Shown here one piece after another: positions 1 to 12,505 of a stretch of DNA of 64,000 nucleotides. This stretch comes from Naumannella cuiyingiana (GTDB lineage: Bacteria; Actinomycetota; Actinomycetes; Propionibacteriales; Propionibacteriaceae). The notes beneath the pieces were generated by a model that saw only the letters and a program-made list of their open reading frames with translations, made no database searches and had not been told where the DNA came from. The position numbers and the translations under genes were made by a program. The stretch lies in contig NZ_JACBZS010000001.1 of assembly GCF_013408305.1 (NCBI RefSeq), forward strand, positions 3,286,001-3,350,000, read 5' to 3'. Each line of letters opens with the position of its first letter. Position 1 is the first letter of the stretch.

Positions 1-242
1 CGGTGCCCGAGGATCCGGCGCTGCGGCCCCGCCCGGGCGACATCGCGCACGCGCGGATCAGCCGTGCTGCGCCCCATCACCTGACCGCCGACGCCGGGAT
101 CAGCGGGCTGCGGCGGACCCGTGGCGGCGACGCCTGGGCCGCCCGCACCGCCGAGCCGACGCGCGCGGTCGGGCTGGGCATGCCGGGGATCGGCCGCCCA
201 GCGCCCGAGCCGGCGTCCGGGCCGGCCTGCGGCGCGCTCTGA
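1..242 (+). CDS. miaB: tRNA-2-methylthio-N6-dimethylallyladenosine synthase MiaB, C-terminal part (5' truncated by window)
   Basis: The frame is open from the window edge and closes at TGA, leaving only the last ~79 residues. They match the C-terminal TRAM (RNA-binding) region of actinobacterial MiaB: '[14 protein letters not shown]', then '[14 protein letters not shown]' and a tail with '[12 protein letters not shown]'. MiaB is the radical-SAM Fe-S enzyme that adds the 2-methylthio group to i6A37 of tRNAs. The radical-SAM core lies upstream of the window, so the call rests on the tail plus context: miaA, which makes the i6A substrate, lies 2.1 kb downstream on the same strand. Confidence 0.72.
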
Positions 243-9167: not shown

Positions 9168-9590
9168 TCAGTGCTCGACCGCTCCCCGGCCTTTCTTGAT
9201 CTCGCCGCGCCGCTTCTTGGCCGCCAGCCGGCGCTCGCGTGAGCCGGCGGTCGGCCTCGTCGGCCTGCGGTGTGGCGCCGGTGGGACGATGGCCTCCCGG
9301 AGCAGGTGGGCGAGCCGCTCGCGCGCGGCTCGCCGATTGGCGAGCTGGCCGCGATGCTCGCTTGCCGCGATCGTCAGCTCACCGTCGACCAGCCTCGAGG
9401 CCAGCCGGGCGAGCGCCCGGTCGCGGAGGCCGGCGGGGATCGAGGGCGATCCGGCCACGTCGAATGTCAGCTCCACCCGCGAATCGCTCGTATTGACGCC
9501 CTGACCGCCCGGACCGGAGCTTCGGGAGAATCGCTCGCGCAACTCCGCGGCGGGGATCACCAGCCGGTCGGTCACCACGAGGTCGTCCAC
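9168..9590 (-). CDS. arfB: Peptidyl-tRNA hydrolase ArfB-like ribosome rescue factor
   Basis: About 140 residues from GTG 9590; GTG 9593 directly before it is an alternative. ArfB enters stalled ribosomes lacking a stop codon and hydrolyses peptidyl-tRNA. The release-factor GGQ loop reads 'SRSSGPGGQGVNTSDSRVEL', and the basic C-terminal tail 'SRERRLAAKKRRGEIKKGRG' is what fits the empty mRNA channel in this family. There is no codon-recognition domain, which separates it from RF1/RF2. It converges with the SOS membrane protein gene, 12 bases between stops. Confidence 0.9.
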   Translation of the reverse strand: MDDLVVTDRLVIPAAELRERFSRSSGPGGQGVNTSDSRVELTFDVAGSPSIPAGLRDRALARLASRLVDGELTIAASEHRGQLANRRAARERLAHLLREAIVPPAPHRRPTRPTAGSRERRLAAKKRRGEIKKGRGAVEH

Positions 9591-9707
9591 CACCCCCGCA
9601 GCATGACACGGCCTGTGCCCGCTACGCCTGCGCAATATCGGCGGCGGCCGGAAACGCAGGCGAGGGCGGCATCCCGGCGGACACCACCCTCGTCTGCGGT
9701 TGCGGAA

Positions 9708-11441
9708 TCAGCGCTGGCCCTGCTGGCCCCAGTCGGTCTGGGAGGACTGGCCCTGCTGGCCGCCCTGGTTCCAGTCGGTCTGGGAGGGCTGGGTGCCCTG
9801 GCCCCAGTCACCCTGCGCGGGCAGCGCGGTCTGGTCACGATTGTCCGGACCGGTCTGGGCGCCGCCGGCGTTGTCGACCACCACCGTCTTCATGATCTTG
9901 TCGGCGATGGTCTGTCGCTTCTGGTCCCACAGCGGGAACAGCCAGCCGATGTAGCAGATCAGCGAATCGACAATGTGCGCGATGTCGCGGACGATCGTCA
10001 TCCCGACGCCGATCGGCTGACCGGTCTCGGCGCCGATCAGCTTGGTGCCGGCCACCTGGCGGCCGACCGAGACACCGGTCGAACCGCCCTTGATCCAGCG
10101 GCTGTAGATGGCCCAACCGGCGGCCAGCAGCCACAAGATCAACAGCACGATGCCGGCCGGACCTGCCGACTCGCCCGACATGGCGGCATTGTTGTTGACC
10201 ACATTGAGGATCGTGCCGACCAGCACCAGCGGGAACAGGTCGATGAGCCAGTTGAGCGCACGCTTGCCCCACGGCGCGAAGGCACCGGACGCGGGAGCCG
10301 CCGGGTACGCCGAGTACCCCTGCTGCTGATAGCCCCCCGCCTGCTCGCCGTATCCCGGCTGCCCGTAGCTCGACTGCCCGTAGGCGGACTGGCCGTAGCC
10401 GGACTGGCCGGAATCGGCGGGCTGGCCATAGGCGGACTGGCCGGAGTCGGCGGACTGCCCGTAGCTCGATTGCCCGTAACCGGACTGGCCCGAGTCGGTG
10501 GGCTGGCCGTAGCTGGATTGCCCGTAACCGGACTGGCTCGAGCCGGCGGACTGCCCGTAGCTCGACTGACCGTAGCCGGACTGGCCGGAGTCGGCGGACT
10601 GCCCGTAGCTGGACTGGCCCGAGTCGGTGGGCTGGCCGTAGCCGGACTGGCCATAACCGGACTGGCCGGAGTCGGTGGGCTGGCCGTAGCCCGACTGACC
10701 ATAACCGGACTGGCCGGAGTCGGCGGGCTGCCCGTAGCTCGACTGGCCGTAGCTCGATTGCCCGTAGCCGGACTGGCCGGGCTGTCCGTAGCCAGTCTCG
10801 CCGGGGTCCGACTGGTCGGCGGAGGAGGTTGAGCCTCCCGAAGCGCTCTGCCCGTAGCTGCTCGACCCGGATGAGGATGACCCGGGCTCGGCGTCCTGCC
10901 CGTAGGCGGAGGCGCCATAGCCCTGGTTCCCGGCGCCCTGGTTCCCGTAGCCCTGGTTCCCGGCGCTCTGGTCGCCCGGGCTCTGGCCGTAGGGGTTCTG
11001 GCTGTACGAGTTCTGGCCGTACCCACCCGCGGTCGGCGACTGCTCGCCGGGCTCCTGCCCGTACTGCTGGTTGCCGTACTGCTGGTTGCCGTACTGCTGG
11101 TTCCCGTACTGCTGATTCCCGTACTGGGGCTGGCTGCCGCCACCGGGCTGCTCGCCGTAGGGGGACTGGCCGCCGTACTGCTGGCCGAAACTCCCCGGCG
11201 GCTGGCTCGATCCCTGACCGGCCGGCCCGTAGGGACCCGCGGACGGATTCTGCTCTCCCTGCCCGTAGGACGACGACCCGGGACCATAGGCCGGCGACTG
11301 GCCATAGGTCCCGCTCGACGAGGCGTCGTTGGGTGCATCGGACTCGTTGTCCGGGCTACCACCGTTCCCGGGGCGATAACTGCTGCTGCCGGGCTCATCC
11401 TTGCCGGACTGGTCGCCCCAACCCGGATTCTGGCTCGTCAT
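9708..11441 (-). CDS. RDD family membrane protein with a long Ser/Tyr/Gly/Gln low-complexity N-terminus
   Basis: 577 residues from ATG with GGAGCAAGC before it. About residues 1-385 are almost entirely G, S, Y, Q, N, P and D, built of 'SGYGQ', 'SSYGQ' and 'QYGNQ' units. The RDD domain follows, from about residue 388: '[18 protein letters not shown]', three to four membrane segments, then '[15 protein letters not shown]' and '[13 protein letters not shown]'. A short Gln/Trp/Asp tail ('QTDWGQQGQ') closes it. RDD proteins are poorly understood membrane proteins; some act in ion transport. Short Gln/Pro/Tyr N-termini are common in actinobacterial RDD proteins, but this one is unusually long. A TAGACT hexamer on the minus strand (11471-11476) may be the -10. 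Confidence 0.88.
10360..10800. repeat. Degenerate tandem repeats encoding YGQ-rich units
   Basis: Short in-frame units reading (minus strand) as 'SGYGQ', 'SSYGQ', 'PADSGQ' and 'PTDSGQ' recur about every 15-30 bases with third-position and Ser/Ala/Thr variation. A second array, '[10 protein letters not shown]' (about 11059-11125), is nearly perfect at 15 bases per unit. Slippage or unequal recombination probably changes the length between strains. Confidence 0.85.
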
Positions 11442-11502
11442 GCTTGCTCCTTCGTCGATAGGTCACCCGGAGTCTAGAGCCCGACCGTGCTACCTGTCAG
11501 TG

Positions 11503-11542: not shown

Positions 11543-12001
11543 GTGGCGCCTCGACATCAGCCGGCCGGGTGGCGGCCCGCGGGCCCCGGCCCCGCTCACC
11601 GCCGGGTCGGCCGCGCCCGGGCGGGTCTGGCCGCGGTGGCCGGGTTCGCCGGCGTGGGGTTGGCGCTCAGCCTTGCATTCGGCGCGACCGGGATCGGCCT
11701 GCCGTGCCCGTTCCTGGCCCTGACCGGGTGGCGCTGCCCGCTGTGCGGCGGCACCCGGATGGGCGCCGCCCTGCTGCGCGGCGATCCGGTCGCCGCCTTC
11801 GCCGCGAATCCCGCTCTGCTGATCGTGCTCGTCCTGGTCGGGCTGCGTACCCTCGGATGGGCAGCCGAGCTGATCCGGGGCCGCGCGTCTGCGCCGTGGC
11901 CGGGGCGCGATGCCCGCGGGTGGTTGGCGCGCCACTGGCTGCCCGTCGGTCTCGCGCTGGCCACCGGGTACGCGGTCGCGCGCAACGTGGTCGGCTTCTG
12001 A
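11543..12001 (+). CDS. DUF2752 family membrane protein
   Basis: 152 residues from GTG. A CATACT hexamer ends six bases upstream, so the transcript is probably leaderless. A Pro/Arg-rich N-terminus precedes a membrane segment ('AVAGFAGVGLALSLAF'), then the family signature 'CPFLALTGWRCPLCGGTRM', 'LLRGDPVAAFAANPALL' and two further membrane segments. The CPLCGGTR cysteine pair near the membrane face could bind metal. Function is unknown; these proteins often neighbour RDD, TM2 or CD225-type small membrane proteins, as here. Confidence 0.85.
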   Translation: MAPRHQPAGWRPAGPGPAHRRVGRARAGLAAVAGFAGVGLALSLAFGATGIGLPCPFLALTGWRCPLCGGTRMGAALLRGDPVAAFAANPALLIVLVLVGLRTLGWAAELIRGRASAPWPGRDARGWLARHWLPVGLALATGYAVARNVVGF

Positions 12002-12052: not shown

Positions 12053-12505
12053 GTGCACTGTCCCTACTGTCAGCACCCCGATTCGCGGGTGCTGGACTCC
12101 CGCACCGCGGACGACGGCGGCAGCATCCGCCGCCGCCGGCAGTGCCCGAACTGCGAACGCCGGTTCAGCACCGTCGAGCAGATCCAGCTCGGCGTGCGCA
12201 AGCGCTCGGGCGTGGTCGAACCGTTCAACCGGGACAAGGTGATCAGCGGGGTACGCAAGGCCTGCAAGGGCCGGCCCGTCGCCGATGAGGATCTCGCCCG
12301 CCTCGGCGAGCAGGTCGAGGCCGCGCTCCGGGCCTCGGGGCAGGCCGAGATCCCCGCCGACGAGGTCGGCGTGGCGATCCTCGGCCCGCTGCGCGAGCTG
12401 GACCGGGTGGCGTACCTGCGCTTCGCCAGCGTCTATCGGCAGTTCAACTCGGTCGACGACTTCGCCGCCGAGATCGACCGCCTGCGGACGGGCGCCGACG
12501 GCTGA
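12053..12505 (+). CDS. nrdR: Transcriptional repressor NrdR
   Basis: 150 residues from GTG. NrdR represses ribonucleotide reductase operons in response to ATP/dATP. The zinc ribbon has two Cys pairs ('[13 protein letters not shown]' and '[12 protein letters not shown]'), followed by the ATP-cone from '[16 protein letters not shown]' to 'RFASVYRQF'. A TAGACT hexamer (12009-12014) and AAGGAAGG (12040-12047) give it a short leader, unlike many neighbours. No nrd genes are in the window. Proximity to lexA is usual in actinobacteria. Confidence 0.95.

Follow-up and report, generated by a model that had tools for sequence, protein, structure and literature searches.

The window, a 64,000-nucleotide stretch of DNA, encodes an actinobacterial Pra-type RDD protein whose long, aromatic low-complexity N-terminal tail belongs to a known protein kind, of which it is an extreme form. 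The original prediction had read the tail as a FUS-like SYGQ domain on a bacterial RDD membrane protein, and much of that description holds. It did not foresee, however, that Pra-type RDD proteins have such tails as a family, so that this one is no oddity, or that the membrane domain can be exchanged: at the same position in the sister species, a comparable tail precedes an unrelated domain, DUF805. Thus, the tail looks like the retained part of the protein and the membrane domain like an exchangeable tether, a reading that draws additionally on a tailed DUF805 gene at this place in a second genus (G025). The exchange of an anchor at a fixed locus appears to be new; searches of the open-licence PMC literature, in which papers naming DUF805 alone may rank low, returned no paper that treats the tails of either RDD or DUF805 proteins, or an exchange of anchors. 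Overall, the earlier reading is partly supported.

Tail, RDD domain and predicted side of the membrane

The open reading frame is complete and starts with ATG, and its coordinates and strand are exact (Table 1). Residues 1-388 consist almost entirely of G, S, Q, Y, P, A, D, N, E and T (24.2% G, 20.1% S, 16.8% Q, 10.8% Y, 7.7% P and 3.6% N). The expected domain of about 385 residues built from SYGQ and QYGNQ units is indeed present: [GS]Y[GS]Q occurs 21 times, whereas 2000 shuffles of these residues gave 1.4 on average and never more than 7, and the repetition is also visible in the DNA as tandem arrays. Tyrosines had been described as regularly spaced and charged residues as few, and both descriptions are accurate. 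The 45 tail aromatics (2 Phe and 1 Trp besides the tyrosines) follow one another at a mean gap of 8.6 residues, more evenly than in any of 1000 shuffles, and 25 D/E against 2 K/R leave the tail 7% charged, with a net charge of about -23. Classical Q/N-rich prion domains are recognized by a threshold of 30 Q+N per 80 residues. Since the tail peaks at 29, just below this value, a yeast-type Q/N-rich prion was excluded and the tail is of the FUS type rather than the yeast-prion type. Using phmmer, whose composition correction may hide such tails, we found no PDB chain similar to the tail at E<=1, and the 577-residue protein has no Pfam domain besides RDD. Long open reading frames overlap the tail in other frames on both strands, at 9270-10832 (+), 10139-11398 (-) and 10829-11461 (+), and are read as products of the GC-rich in-frame repeats. 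The genome (3.5 Mb, two contigs) has three RDD genes, and only this one bears such a tail. When the tail was used as a protein query against its own genome, the only further match at E<=0.001 lay in a DUF805 protein, encoded at 2.24 Mb, so that the composition does not appear to be a genome-wide habit.

Table 1. Coordinates of the features within the window
Feature	Position	Strand	Basis or remark
CDS, N-terminal aromatic low-complexity tail + RDD membrane domain + Trp/Gln C-tail, 577 aa	9708..11441	-	ORF, Pfam
Low-complexity tail, residues 1-388, G/S/Q/Y, 42 Tyr, 2 K/R	10278..11441	-	Composition count
Tandem array of a 16-letter protein unit, periods 33/48/81/96/129/177 nt	10343..10780	-	DNA-level repeats
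QYGNQ tandem array, period 15 nt, 4.6 copies	11058..11126	-	DNA-level repeats
RDD domain (PF06271), residues 389-518	9888..10277	-	Pfam, E 3.2e-16
Long helix, predicted TM1, residues 391-422	10176..10271	-	AlphaFold2 domain model
Long helix, predicted TM2, residues 429-455	10077..10157	-	AlphaFold2 domain model
C-terminal tail, GDWGQ / QTDW repeats, Trp/Gln low complexity, 53 aa	9711..9869	-	Sequence, tandem repeats
Promoter-like CTGACA-N18-TAGACT	11471..11500	-	Same hexamers and spacing upstream of the G001 DUF805 gene
DUF2752 small membrane protein, divergent neighbour, often beside tailed gene	11543..12001	+	
NrdR, marker for the same locus in other genomes	12053..12505	+	

The presence of an RDD membrane domain, as proposed, is secure, with a match of 60.3 bits against a curated cut-off of 24.1. 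Among 13 sequences, the window's included, R6 and D126 are invariant and D13 is conserved in at least 90%. A weak phmmer match of the domain to Rv1282c (E 0.0048) was taken as chance. In the domain as modelled by AlphaFold2 (mean pLDDT 83), two long helices are followed by short ones, and two short strands span domain residues 78-82 and 131-135. The strands presumably pair, which would bring the C-end to the side where the second helix ends. In the same 13 sequences, K+R per 100 residues amount to 20 ahead of TM1, 2 in the loop that joins it to TM2, 17 behind TM2 and 26 close to the C-end. Under the positive-inside rule, the N-tail and the C-tail are both predicted to be cytoplasmic. These counts and the fold model back the cytoplasmic, membrane-tethered placement suggested in the original prediction. 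Pra itself, the 36-kDa proline-rich antigen of mycobacteria, is assigned two TM helices in one report (PMC2874799) and, with UniProt cited, three TM segments in another (PMC9821473). Three segments would put the C-tail outside, which counts against the cytoplasmic reading of that tail.

A tail on the other face of the membrane would be a wall-spanning brush or an adhesin, as might be supposed from the description of mycobacterial Pra as an antigen (PMC9821473) and from the 23 O-glycosylation sites tabulated for Rv1078 in a glycoprotein study (PMC10719292). Yet the positive-inside signal in the 13 sequences is strong, the N-tail is of low complexity from its very start and has no hydrophobic signal segment, and Pra is called an inner-membrane protein in the same source that calls it an antigen (PMC9821473). 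An extracytoplasmic tail is thus very improbable.

Aromatic tails among RDD relatives

Within the family, RDD-domain matches were found in 29 of 57 genomes, and the scores mark about 16 of these as clear orthologues. When named genomes were scanned with the single RDD sequence, no relative was retrieved; the same kind of scan with an alignment did retrieve relatives, and the best 80 of 553 confirmed stretches include Propionibacteriaceae, Mycobacterium, Frankia, Actinoplanes, Amycolatopsis, Nocardioides and Streptosporangiaceae. N-tails were read in 96 RDD rows derived from tblastn matches at E<=1e-12, L001 being excluded as a duplicate of L004. The rows include near-identical species (L005/L035, L008/L051 and L102/L108). 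Starts were chosen by a simple ribosome-site rule, which cut the tails of L009 and L071 and extended those of L048, L050, L091 and L113. An N-tail of at least 40 residues is present in 77 of 95 rows (L092 was left out of the length count), and the 18 rows without one result partly from wrong starts. An isolated one-strain oddity is therefore excluded by the 77 tails. By the fixed rule, lengths in the 95 rows, our own included, range from 0 to 382 residues in the window's protein, with 378 in the next (L006). The array had been called unusual for its length, and it is the longest of the set, but only as the end of a range.

Nearly all long N-tails have one aromatic per about nine residues amid small or polar residues. 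The repeated units differ: PPPPGGY in mycobacteria, QYPQPG in Frankia and YGQQPP in Actinoplanes. Tyr itself is replaced at a similar spacing of 10-13 residues by Trp in L012 (GWDQQGQ) and L019 (DPWGSQ) and by Phe in L059 (SPFGQQ, the tail of Amycolatopsis decaplanina). In 66 tails of at least 60 residues and at least six aromatics, the mean aromatic gaps have a median of 8.8 residues, and 50 of the 66 are more evenly spaced than their shuffles (p<=0.05); spacer composition over the same tails varies widely (Pro 8-54%, Gln 0-33%, Ser 0-20%). Shorter tails, L092 (open frame) and L083, L090 and L093 (few aromatics) were left out of this count. The spacing is suggestive of conservation, with the qualification that the rows are related and that tandem repeats duplicate their own spacing.

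An explanation that dispenses with selection on the tail regards it as a tolerated slippage product of GC-rich in-frame repeats, with the RDD domain doing the work. This agrees with the tandem arrays of many periods, every detected offset of which is a multiple of 3, with tail lengths between 0 and 382 residues and with repeat units that vary by species. It sits less well with an aromatic gap that stays at about nine residues while the spacers drift, with the Trp and Phe that stand in for Tyr in L012, L019 and L059, and with the sister species (G001), where the tail stayed and the membrane domain changed. Moreover, mismatch rates between the in-frame repeats are 0.25, 0.21 and 0.35 at codon positions 1, 2 and 3, a third-position excess that also argues against slippage, although the effect is modest and the offsets overlap. 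This count, for which the repeats were chosen by nucleotide identity, is a fairer measure than the non-synonymous/synonymous ratio of the repeat units (0.24-0.69), which is biased because its windows were chosen by amino-acid identity. Taken together, unselected slippage appears unlikely, and we infer that the tail is probably the selected part of the protein.

Tails also share a feature at their beginning. Trp occurs within the first 20 residues of 18 of 31 long tails, where its density is 2.9% compared with 0.075% in the remainder. Tails below 100 residues, the Trp-based L012 and L019, and L018, L048, L066, L091 and L113, whose start or domain edge was judged wrong, were left out of this count. 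The N-terminal Trp is seen in the window (11382-11441) and its relatives, and in DUF805 tails as well (MSNQQWGP). It is possibly a shared docking motif.

A further type of tailed membrane protein was met in an 8-kb stretch upstream of NrdR in G031 (L191:2718-4061, minus strand): a zinc-ribbon protein in which an aromatic low-complexity linker is followed by a single hydrophobic segment.

Probable exchange of the membrane domain at the LexA-NrdR locus

We took the NrdR locus from all 57 family genomes, our own from the window. A tailed RDD gene lies there in 12 genomes (7 genera) and a tailed DUF805 gene in two (G001 and G025); one genome (G045, a genus-mate of G025) has a tail whose anchor is lost at a contig end, three loci are truncated, and in the other 39 of the 57 genomes no tailed RDD or DUF805 gene was found at the locus. 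The tailed gene is thus not essential to the lineage. At least three of the 39 (G017, G039 and G049) have a tailed RDD gene elsewhere in the genome. Given that RDD occupies the locus in seven genera, the direction of change would be RDD first.

Of the 15 loci that contain a tailed gene, 13 have DUF2752 beside it, compared with 11 of the 39 that contain none (Fisher p 1.5e-4, uncorrected for kinship), and DUF2752 lies within the fetched stretch in 20 of the best 80 named RDD loci, including those of Propionibacteriaceae, Actinoplanes and Kribbella. It was not detected at the G025 and G045 loci. These associations make DUF2752 a candidate partner of the tailed protein. Two Cys motifs, LPCPFL and RCPLCGGTRMG, are present in the DUF2752 protein of the window. 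ArfB was detected beside the gene in the window alone among the 57 NrdR loci.

For the genus of the window's genome (G000), one other genome, G001, was available for comparison. The two are sisters (100/94) in a LexA+NrdR tree of 48 of the 57 genomes, the backbone of which is unresolved. G001 contains no match to the window's RDD domain at E<=0.001; by this missing match, its two RDD genes are taken as other paralogues. At the NrdR-DUF2752 site it has instead a 487-residue reading frame (L119:5807-7270), in which a YGQ/YGSPSYGQ tail of about 345 residues precedes DUF805 (E 3e-19). This tail also scores above the cut-off for the Pfam 'Mucin-like' entry PF16058 (E 1.2e-14), probably through composition only.

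Several observations suggest that the two genes have the same start. They share position and orientation beside DUF2752, within the gene order LexA-x-DUF2752-NrdR. Upstream of each is CTGACA-N18-TAGACT, which begins 59 nt (G000) or 57 nt (G001) before the start, with the second hexamer at -35 or -33; it occurs twice in the 848,006 nt of the 57 loci, counted on both strands, once per species, and is the sole promoter-like match found in the window, against 0.1 expected. Furthermore, the N-terminal 80-90 residues of the two proteins align, with a stretch of 11 letters included in the alignment, at a score of 111, which none of 2000 composition shuffles equalled (mean 65, sd 9). Other tail windows scored 74-96 in one direction; in the opposite direction they scored 86-94, and there the overlapping window 41-130 reached 121. 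Homology of the 5' parts is thus strong for promoter and site and moderate in the tail. Alternatively, the G001 gene could be an independent tailed DUF805 gene that landed there after loss of RDD, its tail being alike by convergence. In the LexA+NrdR tree, the nearest two genomes (G002 and G009) lack a tailed gene at the site, repetitive tails converge easily and tailed DUF805 genes are common in the family, which would suit such an origin. Promoter hexamers of identical sequence and spacing, confined to these two species, the stretch aligned near the N-terminus and the unchanged place and orientation beside DUF2752 nevertheless speak against it, and we regard convergence as improbable.

RDD and DUF805 show no detectable profile homology (hhalign probability 2.2, E 0.021 over 29 columns), so that, at least by comparison of profiles, they are not a single fold bearing two names. 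The DUF805 tree places the domain at the G001 locus as sister to G001's own hem-locus DUF805 (96/94) and apart from those of G025 and G045. Holding them together in a single clade is disfavoured (AU p 0.028), a weak result, since the group was named after the tree had been seen. The likely donor in G001, the first gene of the hem locus, is tail-less today. In the same locus (L206), the second gene of the DUF805 pair bears an N-terminal tail. The N-terminal Trp of the G025 protein is uninformative on an RDD origin of its start, as DUF805 genes at other loci also begin with MSNxxW.

Tails are frequent on DUF805 beyond this locus. The 42 domains surveyed in the family, from 30 of the loci behind the 54 places listed plus L119 and L120, comprise 25 with an N-tail, 4 with a C-tail, 1 with both and 12 with none, so that 30 of 42 are tailed; duplicate loci (L132, L206 and L187) and one domain below 90 residues were left out of both the count and the tree. 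The occurrence of tails at either end fits a DUF805 with both ends on one side of the membrane. The DUF805 protein at 2.24 Mb in the window's own genome has a 63-residue N-tail and a 107-residue C-tail of the SGYGQ kind. Its model (mean pLDDT 57.5, nine sequences) falls below a pLDDT of 50 in residues 1-47 and 190-293, as expected of disordered tails. Its gene lies between hemB and hemL as the first of a DUF805 pair (L120:1660-2541 and the next gene), and its SGYGQ tail is mainly C-terminal.

The exchange also bears on the possibility that the protein is a cation/H+ antiporter or another transporter by virtue of RDD, with the tail tuning activity or clustering. An RDD protein of Halobacillus has been reported as a Na+(Li+,K+)/H+ antiporter (PMC5996927), and the conserved R and D residues are present here. 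By contrast, DUF805 takes the place of RDD at the G001 locus and forms the membrane part of the tailed protein at the G025 locus, and the RDD model has just two long helices and no PDB fold match at E<=0.001. We consider a transporter quite unlikely. The DUF805 model likewise gave no PDB fold match at this threshold.

Proposed function and comparison with known systems

We propose that the protein is a membrane-tethered disordered polymer on the cytoplasmic face. Its evenly spaced aromatics, Tyr here and Trp or Phe in some relatives, would act as weak stickers and G, S, Q, N, P and T as spacers, whereas RDD would serve mainly as a two-helix tether, exchangeable for the unrelated DUF805. At a high copy number such as that reported for mycobacterial Pra, tails could meet in the membrane plane. 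Clusters, a condensate in two dimensions or a densely packed adhesive layer could result, and any of these might organise other factors or recruit them; the DUF2752 neighbour and the N-terminal Trp motif are candidate partners. The chances seem evenly balanced for the core of this proposal, a sticker-spacer polymer dense on the inner face, held by an exchangeable anchor, whose aromatics join tails or bind clients. That the tail actually condenses falls somewhat short of an even chance. A Tyr-rich tail alone is a weaker condenser in FUS than Tyr combined with Arg, and the near absence of Arg here therefore counts against condensation, as does the finding of no self-association data for any Pra-type RDD member in the open-licence PMC literature. 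More tentatively still, the aromatic sticker-spacer tail may be, across Actinobacteria, a portable working module of small membrane proteins that forms a condensate or an adhesive layer at the inner face of the cytoplasmic membrane, its anchor (RDD, DUF805) exchanged at a fixed locus. It would then be a prokaryotic equivalent of the FUS tail, reached by convergence and tethered to a membrane. Should the tail do the work and RDD be the tether, the question shifts from what RDD transports to what the tail gathers; the sister species would provide a natural anchor-swap experiment, and the aromatic-sticker rule drawn from human proteins would gain a bacterial, membrane-bound case.

The closest known system is Pra (Rv1078, MAP_1025), which likewise has an N-tail of low charge with evenly spaced aromatics before RDD. 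The RDD domains are 40-46% identical in loci from Mycobacterium, Mycolicibacterium and Mycolicibacter. Unlike the 388-residue SYGQ-type tail described here, mycobacterial tails are short (about 27-93 residues when complete) and mostly of the PPPPGGY type. Gene order differs as well: a single mycobacterial locus was examined (L087, from Mycobacterium paraense), and its RDD gene is flanked by genes for a cystathionine-synthase-like protein and a Cys/Met-metabolism enzyme, as in Rv1077-Rv1079, whereas here the neighbours are ArfB and DUF2752, between LexA and NrdR. The mycobacterial order is not known to define the Pra-type RDD family. MAP_1025 carries the name 'Pra; RDD family protein' (PMC6313528). 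In M. tuberculosis, where it represents this protein kind, Pra has the top emPAI share (5.66 mol%) among the membrane proteins tabulated for a Triton X-114 extract and is given there without an annotated function (PMC2874799), and its mRNA ranked 16 in one analysis (PMC2246267).

Within the window's own genome, the DUF805 proteins between hemB and hemL carry the same kind of tail on a small membrane domain, although the domains are unrelated. Rv1747, a mycobacterial ABC transporter, offers a precedent: its disordered cytoplasmic module undergoes phase separation, and membrane nanoclusters of the protein have been reported (PMC9312465). It differs in having FHA domains and a saturation concentration lowered by phosphorylation (PMC9312465), whereas our protein has no such Pfam domain. 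Finally, the FUS-like composition originally proposed agrees with the description of the FUS prion-like domain as QGSY-rich and free of Arg and Lys, its 24 Tyr lying in [S/G]Y[S/G] motifs that have Gln or Pro as the next residue (PMC11346406). Both have [S/G]Y[S/G]Q repeats, richness in Q, G, S and Y, scarce K/R and regular Tyr. They differ in Tyr content, which is 10.8% of 388 residues here against 24 Tyr in residues 1-165 of FUS (PMC11346406). In FUS, replacement of all Tyr almost abolished phase separation, and the number of Tyr outweighed their position (PMC11346406). Unlike FUS, the present protein has no RNA-binding or RGG domain and is tethered to the membrane, and its tail matched no PDB chain at E<=1 by phmmer.
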